This document shows positions 1,914-34,026 of a stretch of DNA of 35,020 nucleotides, in pieces (within the stretch, counting starts at the first letter, position 1; each line of letters opens with the position of its first letter). This stretch comes from Patellaria atrata CBS 101060 (Eukaryota > Ascomycota > Dothideomycetes > Patellariales > Patellariaceae). The stretch is from NCBI GenBank assembly GCA_010093705.1, contig MU006094.1, forward strand, positions 11,230 through 46,249, written 5' to 3'. The notes beneath the pieces were generated by a model, which searched no databases, was not told where the DNA came from, and saw only the letters and a list, made by a program, of their open reading frames with translations. The position numbers and the translations under genes are program-made.

Positions 1914-3920
1914 TCAAAGAGCTTGGCCGGGTACTGGCTTACGGGTGGGGAGTGCACTTGTAGGAGACATACTCGGACCCACATTTGGGTTCATCGGACT
2001 AGATCCTGGAGGCGAGTTTCGACGAGCCTGCATTTGGCTAGCTGAATTCGATCTTCGCCTGCTACCTGGAGGCGGAACTGGGCGTTGATGTTCATAGCCG
2101 TAAGGTCCAGGAGATTGTGATCGAGGTGGTCCAGCATACGGTGCATTGCTATTAGCACGGCCACGGTTAGGTCCTGGTGACATTGTACGAGGACCAGGGG
2201 ACATGGAACGCGGGCCTGGTGACATTGCACGAGGACCTGGTGACATAGCACGCGGAGGACCGTTGAAAGGAGGACCCTGAGGACGATGACCAGCTGGAGA
2301 CATGGCCCGTTGATGAGGTCCTTGAGGTCCAGGATAGGGTCTTGGGACTGGAGAGTTGCGACCACTAGCAGCAGACAGGGGACGTGGTGGATTGACTCCC
2401 ATTGGGCCTCCCATTGGAGGTCCCATGCGAGGAGGTGGGCCTTGAGGAGAGCGAGCTTGAGGAGGAGTGCCATTTAGTCGTGGTCTGACGGGATGCTTGG
2501 AAAGACAAGAGCGAGGAACGACACCTTGTTGAGTACGATCCATACGAATGCAGAGAGCCTAAACTATTAGCAATTGAACTCTCGAAAAGGAACCGTTGTG
2601 AGGACTTACCCATCCATCATCGTACTCGTGAACCATGCGAACTAGTTGACCTTGGTGGAGATCCAATTCATCTTCCATGGAGGGGACAAACGGTTGATGG
2701 ACCCTATGTACATTGTTCATACCAGGACTACCAGGAGGTGCACCTGTGGGAGCAGGACCAGGAGATGCGGGGAGCTCACTGCTTTCAGTCCAAGCAGGAC
2801 TAGGTGCGGCAGATGGTATAGTTGCTTGCGAATTGATGCTGACTGGTTTGGGAACCTCTTTGCGGTGAATAGCGGGACCCACAGCAGCGGCTGTAGCAAT
2901 TGCCGCAGCTCCAGTAAGAGTACTCGTAGTAGAGGGAGCTAGACTAATTTGAGTACCATTACGAGCAGACATGGACTCGAGAGTTTCCGCATGGTTGCCG
3001 AAGGGGTTAGCTGGGTTATTGGCTGTATCGCTCTGAGCTCCCTTACGTTCCCAAGCAGTTGGACTTGGCTGTGGTGACGGGGAAAGAAATCCATTAGAAT
3101 CGCCAATGGGAGTAAGACCATGTGGAGGACCCGCTTCAGGTTTGTTTCCGGTGCTACGGCGATCTCCAGCAAGCATGGGTAAGAATTGAGTGACTGGTCG
3201 TAAGCTGAGGCGGGGTGCGGTCGCAGAAGTCCTAGTGCTTTCACCTCCATTCAACGGGGCGACAACTGAGGGTGGAACTACTTTCTCATTGTCTAACTTT
3301 TCTTGAGCTTCACGGTTCTTCTGTTTCTTGCGGCGGATGAAGAACAGAGCGAAAGCAAAAACGACGCCGAAAATAAGAAGCACACCCAAAGCCACACCAG
3401 CTTTAGCACCAGCAGACATCCCACCAGAGGAGGAAGATGCTTCCGATGTGTCCGACGTAGCAGCCGCAGATGGAGAAGATACCGAAGTTGTGGAACGAGA
3501 AAAGGTGGTATCGATGGCAAGCTCTTCAACCGTAGTAGGAGTTGGACTGGATGCAGCATTGAAGGTTTCGTCAGCAGTGGGACGTCCAGTGGATCTTGTG
3601 CTTCGAGAAGGAGTACGAGTAGGCAAGGTAGTCTCTTCGTCTCGCGATGCTGTGACTGGCGCTCCTAGAGTCATTTTACTCCTGGTCGTAGTTCTCTCTT
3701 GGCCATCATCGTCATCCCTGTTATTCGGACGGCGAGTGCTGCGAGACCTTGGTGGTTCGGTTTGGGTGACCCAATTAACAGGTCCATCGAAGGTTTGCGG
3801 TAGGGTAAAGAAAACGACTGATACGATTGTCTCGGCTGGAGCAGGTTCGCGCGCGACAATGCCGTTCAAGTTGCTGTCGTCACGTTGGCGAGCATGATGT
3901 TGGTGTCGACGATGAGCCAT
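1914..3920 (-). CDS. Fus1-like single-pass membrane protein with SH3 domain
   Basis: Two exons: 3920-2610 and 2558-1914. The 51-bp intron (2559-2609) has GTAAGT and TAG ends, falls after Asp-Asp-Gly-Trp, and splicing completes the SH3 domain. The product is 651 aa. Residues about 80-165 are Ser/Thr-rich, mucin-like and probably O-glycosylated. A membrane segment lies at about 171-194, followed by the positive-inside cluster RRKKQKNR. The SH3 domain spans about 403-464, with the ED-ELDL / DDGW / GVVP signature residues. The tail is a long Pro/Ser/Arg region ending KPVPGQAL. There is no cleavable signal peptide, so the membrane segment probably acts as signal-anchor. The order ectodomain, TM, SH3 resembles yeast Fus1, but here the SH3 is followed by a ~190-residue disordered tail. 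I infer a cortical scaffold, perhaps in polarity or cell fusion. The architecture is solid; orthology to Fus1 is not proven. Confidence 0.88.
2170..2253 (-). repeat. Four 21-bp in-frame tandem repeats (coding)
   Basis: Four consecutive 21-bp units within the C-terminal tail of the SH3 protein encode a heptapeptide, R-(A/S/T)-M-S-P-G-P. Each unit carries a Ser-Pro site that a proline-directed kinase could phosphorylate. The units differ mainly at third positions and at the second codon, so they are not very recent duplicates. Confidence 0.8.
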
Positions 3921-5040
3921 TGCGAAGGTTATCGGATGATATGATTGAGCAATTCCTATCTCACTATCCTATGAATTAAAGAATATGATTCTGTTGTAGG
4001 TGGCTGAGTCGGTGGTCGAGATTCAGATTCCAATTGTGCGGTGGAGAATGTGCAAACGGGTAGGGTGCGTAGGCGAGGAATGCGATCGTGACTCCCTCGC
4101 GATAAACAATTGAGTCAGATGTGGTAGGATTAAGATAATGAGCGAATGCGACTGCCGGGTTGTAAAAGAATGATAACGACGGCTTGGTCGCGCAAGAAAG
4201 TAAAGATCGTGGGGTTGACCGCGAGGGTTGATGGTCGGTAGAGGAGAAAAGAAGAAGAGGAGGTCGACGAGGAGGTGAGAAACGAAGTTTGGGCCTCAGC
4301 AAACAGGCCACACCAAGTTTCCAACTGCTCAGCCTAGCAGGTCGTGCCTTCTGTGGCTGCGTGTGCCTTCTTTCCCTGACAAGTAATTTCGGAAATGGAG
4401 GGAACGATCGCTCTAGCGTGAAAACCACTCAGGTACCCGTGCTTGTTCATTGGCCAACTCTTGACGCGGCTTGGCGTGAAGATTTATTCTCATATCGAGC
4501 TTTGTTTTAATTGGTTGTTTGAGTACTCGAGCCGCTTCTATTTAGGAACAGATGACGATCCCTCACCCTTCATTTATCCTTTAATCCTTTTGTGACTGAG
4601 TCGTGACTTCCTTAAGTTCCTCCTCCCTCTTATCGTTGCCGGGAGATCATCACTTATCGTTAGCTTTATCATCGTCATTGACCGAAATGCTGAGCGTCGT
4701 CGAGGTATAGATACGACAGCTATACGGAATATATAACAGGTAGTCATCCTCACTTGACAGTTGTTAGTGGTTGTATGATTCTACCATACCTTCACCAAAT
4801 GTCCCCTTTTGGTTACAATGACAATCTGTACGGAAATTTTGCATAATCGTTTATATTACAATTGCATAGAGCTTATCATTAAGCTCTTTTTATCTACCGA
4901 CCCAGAATGCTGCAGAGGAGAATTGGTATAGTACTCCATCACGTCGACAAAGTCAAGCCGACGTATATTCCATGATGATGCTCCAATTCGCCATCCCACC
5001 GACGCCTTGCAAAAGAACAGGGGGTATCAGGTTCAACCCC
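3921..5040. other. Intergenic region upstream of the SH3 gene
   Basis: This 1.1-kb gap holds the promoter and 5' leader of the SH3 gene (minus strand) on its left and the 3' flank of the PCI gene (minus strand) on its right. Part of 3976-4428 is open on the minus strand, but the translation is low in motif content and rich in Pro, Ser and Leu, as expected from a C/T-rich leader. No RNA gene or element was recognised. A T-loop-like string GGTTCAACCCC at about 5030 does not belong to a cloverleaf. Confidence 0.5.
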
Positions 5041-7810: not shown

Positions 7811-9106
7811 TCAACGTGGTTCTAGATCTGCGTGGATATCATCCAAAGTCTCGAACACACGATCCTTCATCTCTTTCGGGTCCAGATTGGGGTTAGAGAG
7901 CACCTGAGTCACTTCCTCTTTGACACACACAAGGACAGCCTGCGCGGTAGGGGAAAGTACATCAGCGCTGTTCTTTGGGCCTTCGCGGCGACGTCGTTCC
8001 AACTGAGCCCATCTATCTTTCGCGACATTGAGATCAGTGATCGGGATAAAGGAGTCCCCCATACCAGAGGCATCGAAAAACTTCTTCATGCGCCTGTTCA
8101 TGTGCTCTTTAGCGGAGAGGGTTGGATCCACTTGACGGTTATCCTCCGCTAGGTTCGCCATTCGCAGAAGAACACGTGCGAAGTCCTCCTCCACGTCCAC
8201 GGCCCAGTCAGAATGCTCACGGGAAAGTCCAGGGCGGTGTAGACGCTTGTTGACGGCATTGCTTGGACCATTGCTTGGACCATTGGCTGTACCATTGGCT
8301 GTACCGTCGGTTGCACCTTTCGCTATACCATTAGCTTTACCATTGGCTGTAACGCGCACAAGAGTGGCTTTTGTTGGTGTTCCTTCGAAACCGCCAGGAA
8401 CCAATGTTGCTTGTGAGGCTAGAGAATCCGAAGTTGACACCCTACGGAAGTGTTCAGGATGAACCCCATAAGTAGGCTCGAGAGTAGATAAAGGAACGGA
8501 GGGAGAATCAGAGAAGAACACATCGGTCTCACGTGGACTTCCGAGACCCACCGTGATGTATTCAGCATCACCGTTGTCGCTAACATCTTGGGAAGCGGCA
8601 CTGAGGGCTTTGCCAATAGTGGAGGCTACGGATCTAGGTCGATCTAACATTTCCAGACGCTCATCAATGCTTTCTAACGGTTCCTGGCTGTTTCCGTTTG
8701 GACTCAAGAGCGACCCATTAAGATAAGTAGTAGGGACACTCGACGCCGGGGTGTTATGAGGGACAAAGGTGGGCTCCCCGAAAGACAATTCCTCCTGCTG
8801 GATCAGCAGATCCTCCACGTCATCGATAGAGATGCCAGCAAATTCGCCTATAACAGAAGAGGCGTCTGGGGTGTTGGCAGGTACACTAGGGGGTGTGACG
8901 CTGCTGGAAATACTGGTCGCTAAGCTGCTACTGCGCAAGCGAGTGCTGATGCTTTGCGGAGTGCCGTCTGTAGTTATTGTTAGACCGAGGAATTCAAGCG
9001 ATTTACGACAACGAAAAACGCGGTCACAAAGTGATATTGAGATCGCGGGCTTACCTGATGGAGTGGGAGTGGCAGAATTAGATGGAGATGGAGATAGAGA
9101 ATTCAT
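7811..9106 (-). CDS. Unrecognised Ser/Thr-rich protein with Ala-Asn-Gly repeat; 5' end uncertain
   Basis: The frame contains one clear intron, 8968-9054 (87 bp, GTAAGC...CTACAG), which is itself free of stops in the gene's frame. Removing it changes nothing downstream but deletes an atypical Cys/Arg/Phe-rich segment. From the first in-frame ATG (9106) the product is 402 aa. It has a disordered Ser/Pro/Thr N-terminus, an acidic stretch around SIDDVEDLLIQQEE, an Arg-Pro-Arg-Ser basic site, and an Ala-Asn-Gly repeat near the middle. The C-terminal ~150 residues look folded and helical (WAVDVEEDFARVLLRMANL to ETLDDIHADLEPR). I do not recognise the family. The frame stays open upstream of 9106 back to a possible acceptor near 9183 (CTAAC branch site, then TTAG), reading FDFQVLQQWPTKIL. 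A further 5' exon, within 9183-9729, is therefore quite possible. Confidence 0.65.
   Translation of the reverse strand: MNSLSPSPSNSATPTPSGKPAISISLCDRVFRCRKSLEFLGLTITTDGTPQSISTRLRSSSLATSISSSVTPPSVPANTPDASSVIGEFAGISIDDVEDLLIQQEELSFGEPTFVPHNTPASSVPTTYLNGSLLSPNGNSQEPLESIDERLEMLDRPRSVASTIGKALSAASQDVSDNGDAEYITVGLGSPRETDVFFSDSPSVPLSTLEPTYGVHPEHFRRVSTSDSLASQATLVPGGFEGTPTKATLVRVTANGKANGIAKGATDGTANGTANGPSNGPSNAVNKRLHRPGLSREHSDWAVDVEEDFARVLLRMANLAEDNRQVDPTLSAKEHMNRRMKKFFDASGMGDSFIPITDLNVAKDRWAQLERRRREGPKNSADVLSPTAQAVLVCVKEEVTQVLSNPNLDPKEMKDRVFETLDDIHADLEPR
8254..8350 (-). repeat. 12-bp coding minisatellite (Ala-Asn-Gly repeat)
   Basis: A short tandem array of about eight 12-bp units with plus-strand consensus ACCATTGGCTGT. 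It encodes repeats of the form (G)-x-A/S-N in the unrecognised protein (ANGKANGIAKGATDGTANG and onward). Some units are near-identical (ACCATTGGCTGT twice, GCTTGGACCATT twice), which suggests recent slippage and likely length polymorphism between strains. Confidence 0.75.
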
Positions 9107-30154: not shown

Positions 30155-30803
30155 TCATAAGAGATCAAAGTCATCCAACTTGTCCCGGTATTTGAGGATA
30201 TTCCGCTTGATCTTCGAAGAATCCACCCACGTCACGAAATCTTCAAGATTCCTACTTAATTAGGAAAGTTAGCCCCAATGCCCTAACCCATCACATGGTA
30301 AATGCGAAAAGAAGAAAGAAAACGAGAATAACCCACCTCGTCACCAAGAACGCCGGATCCGTCACGACCTCCGTGCCGACCCTCACATGCCCTTGCTCCA
30401 CGAACCTCACCGCCGCCTGTACCGTATCCGCCATACGCAGCCTCGTCATCACGACCGGCAGACGTCTCCTACACATACTCGCCACCGTGACCTTGCGCTC
30501 GACATCGCTCAGTTTCCCCCTCCCCCCGCCTCCCGTGCCCAGGATCCCCATCTCGAACAGCTTCTCAAGCAGGAGGTCTTCGTGCTTGAGGCGGACGGGG
30601 TCGCCGGGCGCGAGAAGGGAGAGCCGGTGAGCGAGCGACTTTAGCGACCCGCAGAGCCGGTTGTAGGATGTGTAGTCGGCCGGCGACGTGAGGTGGTAGC
30701 GGCGTTGGATCGAGGCCGCCCGGTGCTGCGAGTCGCTTTTGTAGGTTGTAAAGTCGACTTTGCGGAGGAGGCGGGATTCGTGGTGTTTGAGTTTGCGGAC
30801 CAT
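30155..30803 (-). CDS. IMP3: Imp3, U3 snoRNP protein (uS4-like)
   Basis: Two exons, 30803-30337 and 30251-30155, joined across an 85-bp intron (30252-30336, GTGGGT...AAGTAG). The product is 187 aa, against 183 in yeast. Sequence is strongly conserved: [18 protein letters not shown] at the start, [37 protein letters not shown], and an S4 RNA-binding domain ([20 protein letters not shown]). It ends [16 protein letters not shown] to DDFDLL. Imp3 joins Mpp10 and Imp4 in the SSU processome and helps the U3 snoRNA pair with pre-rRNA for 18S maturation in the nucleolus. A Gly-rich insert (GTGGGGRGK) sits before the S4 region. The acceptor was fixed by frame: the nearer AAG would break the conserved Arg-Asn-Leu-Glu. 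The gene is convergent with the eisosome gene, and a transposon-like element begins about 120 bp before its start codon. Confidence 0.95.
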
Positions 30804-30924
30804 CGTGATGGTTTGGGGGGTTAGGTGGGAGTCGAGGTCGGGGGGTGTGGGTTAAGAGGGAGGATTTTGAGGTTTAAAAGGTAGGGTGAGGGAAATTTTT
30901 GAAATAGAGATAAGATTAGATCTA

Positions 30925-31011
30925 CGGTACTTTTCAAAATATCGAAGAATTGGATCCGGGGTTTAACCACGTCCAAACGTCCCCACCAGAACAGCCGTAG
31001 TAAGAAATAAC
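30925..31011 (+). repeat. Left terminal inverted repeat of the MITE
   Basis: Starts CGGTACTTTTCAAAATATCG and ends TAAGAAATAAC. It pairs with the reverse complement of 31482-31567 with about nine substitutions and one gap. Its outer end lies about 120 bp before the IMP3 ATG. Confidence 0.85.
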
Positions 31012-31175
31012 GGTTTAAAAACACGTCCCAATAGCTTAAAACTAGTTATAACTATCTATAACCGGTATTATATTAAAGTTCTAACATATTTACTTTACTT
31101 TATCTATAATATTACTAAGTCTAACCGCGTGCTGAGATTAAACACTATCGAGGGAGTTTTAGACTGCCAAGATTA

Positions 31176-31385
31176 CCGCCTTAGTTACAGCCTTAGATAT
31201 AGCCTTAGATGTAGCCTTAGATACGACCTGAACTGAGCGTTTCGTACAGCTCAGATACGGCTGCAGATACGGCTTCAGATACGGCCTGAACTGAGCGTTC
31301 CGGACGACATCAGATAAGGCCTCAGCTGAACGATCCGTACGGCTTAGATACGACCATAGCTACGATCTTAGCTACGGGTTACCAA
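31176..31385 (+). repeat. Degenerate 11-12-bp tandem array inside the MITE
   Basis: About 15 or more units with consensus near ACGGCYTNAGAT (examples ACAGCCTTAGAT, ATAGCCTTAGAT, GTAGCCTTAGAT, ACGGCTTCAGAT). A higher-order pattern is visible: the pair ACGNCCTGAACT + GAGCGTTYCG appears twice (about 31224 and 31282), with a diverged third copy AGGCCTCAGCT + GAACGATCCG. The array is GC-richer than the AT-rich flanks within the element. Confidence 0.75.
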
Positions 31386-31481
31386 AAGCGTTATAGATTA
31401 TATTGGTTATGTAATATATTATCACAACGTAATCTAATAACTTATACCCTATTTTAAATGATAAATACATCTGTTTTCGTG

Positions 31482-31567
31482 GTTATTTCTTACATGGCTG
31501 TTTTGGTGGGGACGTTTGGACGTGGTGAAATCCCGGATCCAATTCTCCAATATTTTGAAGAGCACTG
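31482..31567 (-). repeat. Right terminal inverted repeat of the MITE
   Basis: Read on the minus strand it starts CAGTGCTCTTCAAAATATTG and ends TAAGAAATAAC, matching the left repeat. It is followed by TA at 31568-31569. The next 370 bp lead to the MAD1 start codon. Confidence 0.85.
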
Positions 31568-31569
31568 TA

Positions 31570-31938
31570 AGGTAGTTGGATTTCGGTGATCTGATTGGCC
31601 AAATTTCGAGTGGTGTTCAGACTCAAGATGAAATCAATTTGAAGTAATGTTAAAGTTGATTTTACCATAAAATGATCTATGATCATTGAGTTTCATCCTA
31701 TCCTTGATAAATGAGATGAAATGGGATTCCTGCTCTCACGGGTTTCGCGAGAAGTTCGTGTTGCGAGGCTTGGCTTGCCAGGATCCAAACCATCCAAACA
31801 AAGCCGTTAAGTTGTTTCGCTGAATGCATCACAAACCTGTTGCCCGTGCAAGGTGGAAGTAAAATGCGCTTTTTTCTGCACAGATAGCGTTGGTCTGTAC
31901 TTGGGACTAACATTCGGCGCATCCTGATTGTCTTCGCG
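31570..31938. promoter_or_regulatory. MAD1 promoter and leader, next to the MITE
   Basis: 369 bp between the MITE's right TA and the MAD1 ATG. It is unique-looking sequence with no coding signal. An open frame on the minus strand (31698-31922) has no recognisable motif. A CTCATTTATCAAGG-type AT-rich tract near 31700 is the only local compositional change seen. Confidence 0.4.
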
Positions 31939-34026
31939 ATGCATCGCTACCAACCTACGTACGATTTTCTCTCAGGCGCACCGTCACCTCCCCCACAGCA
32001 ACAGGTACCATTTAGAGAGACGCTGCGGCAATCACAAATTTCTCGACCGGATCCTGGGAATGAGGATCTTAGGGCACAGATCAATACCCTACAATATGAG
32101 TTGGATTCACTAAAACAGGAGCGGGAACTCACCGCGTTAAGGTACCAGAAAGAGCTTCGAGATGCCCAGGCGAAGGCAGATGCAGATTTCAAGAGGGCGC
32201 AGCAGGCAGAAAGCAGTAATCAATCTGCAACAAACAAGTATGACAATCTTGTTCGTGAACTACAAGATACCAAGGACCGGGCTGCGAATGAGAGAGCAGA
32301 ACTAGAGCGGAGGTTTCGAGCAGTGAAAGATGAGAACACTAATTTACAAGAGGAGTTAGATGAATCGAAGGGGGAATTGGCGTCGTTAGAGCGTCAGAGC
32401 AATCATCGATTGAAAGAAGTGGAAATCCGACATAACACATTGAAGACTACACTCGAAGAGCTCCAAGCAGATGTAGAAGCGAAGGTTACTGCGCTGCAAA
32501 CCACACAGAAACAGCTGTCGCAAAAAGTAGCGGATGTAGATCAGTTAGAGAGCGAAGTTCTCCGACTGAAGGCGCAGACAGGGGATCCGGAAACCGTTGC
32601 TGTTATCAAAAGGGAGCTATCGGAGCAGGTGACACATATTCGAAAACTAGAAGCGACAAACCGGGAGCAATTAGCAGAGCTGAAGCAATACAGGAAGATA
32701 CATAAAAGTATAGACGTGGTTGAGGAGGAAAAGCGCGTCTTAGAGGGAAAACTACGCATGATGGATGATTTGCGTCGAGAGCTCAGCGAAGCTCATCTGA
32801 AACGTCAGATTCTCGAGGATGAGCGCAAGTCCTGGACAGCATACCTCGAAAGTGAATCATCAGGGGAGGGGGAATTACAGTTCGAATCACCGGAGGATAT
32901 GGCGCGAGCTTTCATCAATGAAAGGCTGGAAAGAGCCGCACTGCTCGACAAACTCGGAGCGATCCAACCAGAACTCGCGGTCAAAGAGGAAAATATAAAA
33001 GCCCTAGAAAGTGAAAAAGAAAAACTTCTTGAAGAGTTAGAGAAAACACGCGCTTCTGTAGGAGGAGGTGATAGCAAGATGCGCCTCCGCCTGGAACGTC
33101 AGCGCACCCTCGCTGTCAAAGAAGTCGAATATCTCCGCGCCCAACTCCAGAACTTTGACGCTGAAGAAAGTGAGCTCCAACCTGATAAATACGACGAACA
33201 AAAGTCAAAACGCATCAAAGACCTCGAGTCTCTCGTAGACGAATACCGCAACGAGCTTCAAACTCTCCAAAGTGACCTCAAAGCCCAAGAGATGCAGCTC
33301 CCACTAATAGGCACCAAACGCGCCCGCGACGATGACGATGACGAACGCATCGGCGAACTTCGGCGCAAGAACCGTGATCTCCAAGACCGCGTCGAGAAGC
33401 AAAAGACCGCAGCCGCTGTCCTCGAAGCCGATTTGAAGGCCACAAAAGCTCAGCTCTCCTCACTCAAAGCGTCCTCACGGACCCGCATCCTCACCCTCCG
33501 CTCTAACCCCACCGCCGACGTCGAAGCAATCAAACTATCTACCCTCAAAACGCTGAGAGAAGAAAACAACGCGCTACTAGCTCAACTCCAACATCGCAAA
33601 GAGGGTTATGAGACCGTGCCGAAAGTAACCTTCGAAGCGAGAAAACTCGAAATCGAAAAACTCCACCACTCCGTCGCGGAAAAGGAAAAACGCATGCTTC
33701 GTCTCAAGCAGATCTGGAGCGCAAAATCCGCCGAGTTCCGTGAAGCCGTCGCCTCGATCCTAGGGTGGAAGATGGATTTTATGCCGAACGGACGGGTACG
33801 GCTCACCAACCTCTTCAACCCGGGTAATGAGGAGGAGGGCGAACAGAACAGTATCATTTTCGACGGGGAGAAAGGCGAGATGAAGGTTTCTGGCGGGAGG
33901 CAGAGCGCTTTCGCCCAGGAGATCAGGGAGATGGTGGAGTTTTGGGTTGATGGGAGGAAGGAGATTCCGTGTTTCATGGCGGCTATGACTTTGGAGTTTT
34001 ATGATAAGTATACGAGGGTGAAGTAG
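31939..34026 (+). CDS. MAD1: Mad1, spindle assembly checkpoint protein
   Basis: A single exon giving 695 aa (yeast 749, human 718). Residues about 45-500 are almost continuous coiled coil. The Mad2-interaction motif is clear at 516-524, RILTLRSNP, matching the K/R-hydrophobic-hydrophobic-x-hydrophobic-x-x-x-P pattern (human KVLHMSLNP). The Bub1-binding RLK motif is at 588-590. The C-terminal RWD-like head follows (FREAVASILGWKMDFMPNGRVRLTNLF to MTLEFYDKYTRVK). Mad1 recruits and converts Mad2 at unattached kinetochores, leading to APC/C-Cdc20 inhibition; it also sits at nuclear pores in interphase. A short acidic/basic patch (RARDDDDDER) lies near 462-471. The start ATG follows a GCG and gives MHRYQPTYDFLSG; an N-terminal Pro/Gln-rich stretch precedes the coil. 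The second half of the gene shifts to C-ending codons relative to the first half. All functional motifs are intact. Confidence 0.95.
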   Translation: MHRYQPTYDFLSGAPSPPPQQQVPFRETLRQSQISRPDPGNEDLRAQINTLQYELDSLKQERELTALRYQKELRDAQAKADADFKRAQQAESSNQSATNKYDNLVRELQDTKDRAANERAELERRFRAVKDENTNLQEELDESKGELASLERQSNHRLKEVEIRHNTLKTTLEELQADVEAKVTALQTTQKQLSQKVADVDQLESEVLRLKAQTGDPETVAVIKRELSEQVTHIRKLEATNREQLAELKQYRKIHKSIDVVEEEKRVLEGKLRMMDDLRRELSEAHLKRQILEDERKSWTAYLESESSGEGELQFESPEDMARAFINERLERAALLDKLGAIQPELAVKEENIKALESEKEKLLEELEKTRASVGGGDSKMRLRLERQRTLAVKEVEYLRAQLQNFDAEESELQPDKYDEQKSKRIKDLESLVDEYRNELQTLQSDLKAQEMQLPLIGTKRARDDDDDERIGELRRKNRDLQDRVEKQKTAAAVLEADLKATKAQLSSLKASSRTRILTLRSNPTADVEAIKLSTLKTLREENNALLAQLQHRKEGYETVPKVTFEARKLEIEKLHHSVAEKEKRMLRLKQIWSAKSAEFREAVASILGWKMDFMPNGRVRLTNLFNPGNEEEGEQNSIIFDGEKGEMKVSGGRQSAFAQEIREMVEFWVDGRKEIPCFMAAMTLEFYDKYTRVK

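Follow-up and report, generated by a model that had tools for sequence, protein, structure and literature searches.

A low-copy, TA-flanked element of probable MITE type between IMP3 and MAD1 in Patellaria atrata, and a repeat array found in elements with different ends

Among the sequences that separate the genes of the fungus Patellaria atrata CBS 101060 is a 647-bp element located between the start codons of IMP3 and MAD1. It occupies positions 30923-31569 of the window, by which we mean the whole stretch of 35,020 nucleotides that was analysed (GenBank assembly GCA_010093705.1, contig MU006094.1, positions 11,230 to 46,249). We are confident that it is a miniature inverted-repeat transposable element (MITE), namely a non-autonomous DNA transposon inserted at a TA dinucleotide in the divergent IMP3/MAD1 promoter and likely mobilized in trans by a Tc1/mariner/pogo transposase. 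It is regarded as a non-autonomous DNA transposon because it combines inverted ends, TA edges and no recognisable coding sequence, and because a second TA-bounded element is present in the genome. The element is of an ordinary kind and low in copy number, with a two-copy and not an abundant family. The least expected result, and the part worth following, is that the array of 12-bp and 22-bp units at its centre is common to differently built elements.

Results and Discussion

An inverted-repeat element with TA at both edges

The element is delimited by TA dinucleotides (30923-30924 and 31568-31569), presumed to be a target-site duplication; the left boundary was placed by alignment with the second copy, hereafter the C3 copy. 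The left terminal inverted repeat (30925-31010, plus strand) starts CGGTACTTTTCAAAATATCG and the right one (31483-31567, minus strand) starts CAGTGCTCTTCAAAATATTG when read on the minus strand. The two ends of the element are TACGGTACTTTTC and TACAGTGCTCTTC, and an end sequence of the element is CAGTGCTTTTCAAAATATCGGAGA. Between the arms lie an AT-rich stretch (31011-31160, 30% GC, TpA/ApT 1.73), the central array (31173-31378, plus strand, outer limits set by eye) and another AT-rich stretch (31381-31482, 25% GC); the element as a whole has a GC content of 39%. In ungapped alignment, 74 nt of the arms (30923-30996 and 31496-31569) are 89% complementary, and this was the sole ungapped inverted repeat of at least 30 nt reported in the whole window with a 12-nt seed.

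A preliminary description, made from the letters of the window, had proposed inverted repeats of about 87 bp, TA on both sides and the lack of any coding frame, all of which are borne out. When one gap is allowed, the arms extend to 88 and 87 nt; 78 of the 88 columns are identical and the rest are eight transitions, one transversion and one gap. TA is seen at both outer edges. The longest stop-to-stop frames measure 89 and 66 codons, and neither of these two matched a Pfam family at an E-value of 0.01. The 647-bp element is short, non-coding and furnished with terminal inverted repeats, as MITEs are.

Two elements with the same ends

Copies were sought in 28.3 Mb of genome sequence (46 contigs) with the whole element, its ends alone, a 22-nt end pattern (up to 3 mismatches) and the 110-nt right end of the C3 copy; all copy counts are lower bounds. 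The end pattern yielded 5 matches genome-wide compared to 0 for its reversed control. One match at 3 mismatches (C32:134767) was dropped, being otherwise without similarity to the element. Across all genome searches, two elements bearing the window ends were detected (four ends), the second located at C3:1339916-1341994. This 2079-bp element has TA at both ends and is interrupted by a 1588-bp insert of long terminal repeat (LTR) type, TGTTACGG...GTAACA, with the 5-bp target duplication TAGAA on both sides; without the insert, it is a 486-bp MITE.

The right end of the C3 copy aligns with both window ends at 72-73% over 118 bp, and its left end, from which 11 nt are missing, does so at 70-71% over 77-79 columns. 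Within this one genome, TA is found at 4 of 4 ends of the two copies: in each, similarity starts at the TA and the sequence outside it differs. The presence of these ends on a further element at another locus indicates that the sequence has moved, and we take the C3 copy as good evidence of mobility in this family. The proposal of a TA-flanked MITE in a shared promoter therefore stands as a TA-bounded, non-coding inverted-repeat transposon with a second copy. The accompanying expectation was of many copies with the same ends and TA junctions, and the count here is at least two elements, the window element and the C3 copy.

Beyond this assembly, the exact end pattern was found in none of the viral_contigs sequences. 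Three stretches in genome_contigs contained it, all from uncultured bacteria, and were dropped; about one is expected by chance for a 20-mer, by our estimate. The LTR-type insert of the C3 copy corresponds to positions 2650-4237 of locus L065, and similar letters are visible by eye within locus L091.

Proposed insertion and the transposase

We propose that a TA-targeting transposase of the Tc1/mariner/pogo superfamily, supplied in trans, would have bound the inverted ends of about 88 nt, excised the element elsewhere and pasted it at a TA of the divergent promoter, thus duplicating the TA. We infer both the transposase class and the cut-and-paste step. The element is presumably immobile now, given that the searches turned up no partner gene sharing its ends and that its arms have diverged.

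Several results weigh against this account. MITEs are usually numerous, and only two copies were detected here. The interiors of the two copies barely outscore shuffled ones in global alignment, with scores of 48.5 and 45.0 in the two orientations (shuffled-interior means 26.0 and 16.5, maxima 40.0 and 30.5, 30 shuffles); no conclusion is drawn from this alignment because both orientations beat their controls. The superfamily assignment is the most likely one, and draws on the TA target and on the CAGTGC... start of the element, which we take to resemble Tc1-type ends. Of the two features by which membership was assessed, the TA target is present, whereas ends common to an element encoding a DDE/D transposase were seen at 0 of 47 loci. 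These loci, each with 1500-base flanks, represent 47 of 68 matches from a genome-wide Pfam search (at least 51 to DDE_1 and at least 17 to DDE_3, some overlapping). None carries any of the four ends of the window and C3 elements, the sole matches being 13-18 nt long. Six of the 47 (L019, L025, L034, L037, L043, L050) showed no inverted pair at all within the 1500-base flanks. The other whole-genome end searches placed the end sequence on no further element.

Matches of 18 nt in L036, L039 and L040 were considered and rejected; they are internal, adjoin TTTTGAAAATGATGC and do not stand at inverted ends. Many of the DDE_1 and DDE_3 matches belong to elements bounded by TA, whose ends include TAACGTG... 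and TACTGTGGTAGCC... As no fetched DDE locus shows its ends, the window family looks orphaned in this assembly, and a transposase element with such ends may be present in other strains or species. A comparison is offered by the Trem families of Paracoccidioides, members of the fungal Tc1/mariner superfamily for which a 2-bp TA duplication and inverted ends are described (PMC2836289). The window element has these two features in common with Trem, a likeness of description and not of sequence letters. It differs from Trem and from Tc1/mariner elements in having no transposase and in having ends unlike the fetched DDE_1 and DDE_3 loci of the same genome.

A repeat array in elements with different ends

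The central array contains six 12-bp units (consensus CTCAGATACGGC, up to 2 mismatches) at 31216, 31250, 31262, 31274, 31309 and 31343. Interleaved with them are units of about 22 bp (CTCAACTGAGCGATCCGTACGG, up to 6 mismatches) at 31228, 31286 and 31321, and the array has a 35-bp period. At up to 3 mismatches, there are 9 plus-strand and 1 minus-strand 12-bp units; 200 shuffles gave means of 0.25 and 0.145, respectively, and never more than 3 units in total. Inside the C3 copy, a single 12-bp unit survives together with a 14-nt piece of a 22-bp unit, on which basis the ancestor of this family probably already carried the module. In random sequences of like composition, the 14-nt piece (up to 1 mismatch, chosen after the match was seen) occurred in 0 of 2000 and the 12-bp unit (up to 2 mismatches) in 41 of 2000.

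The same units are found elsewhere in the genome. A 23-nt pattern spanning a pair of 12-bp units gave 34 matches and the 22-bp unit pattern 9 matches, with 0 in the reversed control of each. Apart from the window and the C3 copy, the units were located at 20 places, and the surroundings of all 20 were fetched (L087 and L088 merely extend L072). One of them is an element with other ends (L011 1185-2106, equivalent to C4:1443184-1444105), hereafter the C4 element, which is apparently TA-bounded by reading and holds a double array facing inwards. It is 922 bp long and foldback-like, forming one long imperfect inverted repeat in which the 12-bp units are mostly inward-facing; its match to the window element is confined to the array region.

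Six of the 20 places carry both GGGGACTGTTATTTTGACACCCC ends and constitute a second MITE family: L068 (C17:224203), L069 (C1:2401297), L071 (C2:561726), L073 (C2:1600711), L074 (C8:719951) and L089 (C14:618287). Two others (L082, L086) are seemingly decayed members or pieces of this family. At ten places, no inverted ends were detected outside the array units (L070, L072, L078, L079, L080, L081, L083, L084, L092 and L093, the last two judged by eye only). A weak inverted pair flanks the array at L085 (130-159 and 711-741, in C1:2441400-2442400; 77% over 31 columns) and possibly represents the ends of yet another element type.

A genome-wide search for the GGGGACTGTTATTTTGACACCCC end (up to 3 mismatches) returned 20 matches compared to 0 in the control, some of them a GGGAGCTG variant; it does not list the window element, the ends of which differ. 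Two loci were fetched for their GGGGACTG ends: L090 has one end and one 12-bp unit, and L091 has both ends and no unit at up to 2 mismatches. Target duplications were checked wherever both GGGGACTG-type ends are present, at seven loci comprising the six GGGGACTGTTATTTTGACACCCC loci and L091. Exact 8-bp duplications flank three of the seven (L069 after a one-base shift of its left edge) and 7 of 8 bases agree at two; L091 has an exact 9-bp duplication and L089 none at 8 bp. None of 42 cross-pair controls reached 7 of 8 bases.

One internal module is thus present in the window, C4 and GGGGACTGTTATTTTGACACCCC elements, at least three types that differ in their ends and, to judge from the flanks, have two kinds of target duplication. 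A bolder reading, which we put forward tentatively and consider rather doubtful, is that a single 12-bp/22-bp module travels between transposons with unrelated ends, two of the families being apparently TA-type and one mostly 8-bp-type. If true, the interior of a MITE could be exchanged or captured more than once, with template switching during gap repair as one possible route, or would be retained for a function common to transposase classes. The module may move between elements through such template switching, may be a dispersed minisatellite captured repeatedly as MITEs formed, or may be kept for a function. Whereas the element alone would be one more MITE near genes, a module common to MITEs with different ends is relevant to the origin of the internal sequences of MITEs, an open question.

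A partial parallel may be drawn with Tetris of Drosophila virilis, a foldback transposon that gave rise to satellite arrays from its internal tandem repeats (PMC4079207). The likeness is that tandem units of an inverted-repeat element are also found outside it and that its structure is partly common to another MITE. In Tetris, it is the end portions that are common to another MITE and the units lie in the arms. Here, ends differ between families and the 12-bp units are common to them; those of the window element are located between its arms.

Two of the array loci involve open frames. At L092 (C1:2022450-2023250), 12-bp and 22-bp units lie within a long open frame that reads ...GDPYGIDTASTERSIRPQ...; a protein-coding gene may have incorporated a copy of the module, or a gene may be the source of the module. 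At L083 (C13:551050-552100), the array continues from an open frame ...LTDPHGSDTTLDTASTKRSV...

Position between IMP3 and MAD1 and alternative explanations

IMP3, encoding an S4-domain protein of the small-subunit processome, is represented by an open frame on the minus strand (30291-30803; Pfam Ribosomal_S4 PF00163 and S4 PF01479; first exon by inference). The spindle checkpoint gene MAD1 lies on the plus strand (31939-34026; Pfam MAD PF05557). The preliminary distances of about 120 and 370 bp to the two start codons agree with the measured values of 119 bp to the IMP3 ATG (30803) and 369 bp to the MAD1 ATG (31939). The gap between the start codons is 1135 bp, 57% of which is the element, and subtraction of the element and one TA leaves 490 bp. 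If the element is an insertion, it would have raised the spacing from 490 to 1135 bp. An effect on the transcription of either gene, suggested by this position, is only a possibility. As a naturally occurring insertion flanked by two core genes whose promoter region appears to be shared, the element provides a simple test case.

The proximity of the element to both genes and the regularity of its array, with 9 plus-strand and 1 minus-strand units well above shuffles, would suit a promoter element adopted by the host, in which the element or its 12-bp array supplies transcription-factor or start sites for IMP3 and MAD1. We consider this improbable, though the best of the alternatives. The arms have drifted as in a neglected element (9 substitutions plus one gap over 88 columns), the 12-bp and 22-bp units are also found at the 20 places described above, and the overall composition resembles that left by repeat-induced point mutation (RIP), again as in a neglected element. 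Whole-element ratios are 1.36 for TpA/ApT and 0.64 for (CpA+TpG)/(ApC+GpT), and neither value is reached by any of 331 overlapping background windows. The array composition adds to the RIP-like ratio, with a TpA/ApT of 1.57 in the array and 1.27 in the element outside it. RIP of the element is only possible, because the right arm alone is not RIP-like (0.57 and 1.3) and because, by reading of the alignment, just 1 of 8 arm transitions has the CpA/TpG context typical of RIP; 3 of 8 lie in CpG.

A still weaker candidate is a foldback-type element, whose inverted ends would themselves consist of short tandem units. In its favour, the central array is common to the C4 element with its single long imperfect inverted repeat. 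The units of the window element, however, lie between its arms and not in them and are all plus-strand at up to 2 mismatches, and its ends match those of the C3 copy whereas the C4 element matches the array region alone. Given this arm anatomy, the foldback reading is disfavoured. Least credible of all is a hairpin RNA or small-RNA locus, i.e. a transcribed inverted repeat with its long duplex as the functional product: the strand folds at -247.5 kcal/mol compared to a shuffle mean of -145.4 (standard deviation 7.8, n=20), but such folding is expected of any inverted repeat this long, Rfam has no match in 30700-32000, and the TA edges and unlinked second copy indicate transposition.

The transposon interpretation has a precedent in position in Penicillium digitatum, where a 199-bp MITE in the cyp51 promoter is reported with up-regulation of the gene (PMC4336317). 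The likeness is of a MITE in a fungal promoter; the window element is known from its sequence alone. A literature search with end and unit sequence strings and topics, which covered titles and abstract openings among the papers listed, few of them subscription papers, did not find the window family described. It returned no match to the end strings, and matches to the 12-bp unit string were unrelated and set aside.

A comparison of the IMP3 protein with viral_contigs, made in search of fungal relatives, confirmed none. The fungal character of the gene content is apparent from Pfam matches to eisosome PIL1 and a fungal GCN1 domain. Elsewhere in the window, tandem repeats of 12 and 21 bp lie in open frames at 8257-8351 and 2169-2256, and by eye are unlike the array of the element.
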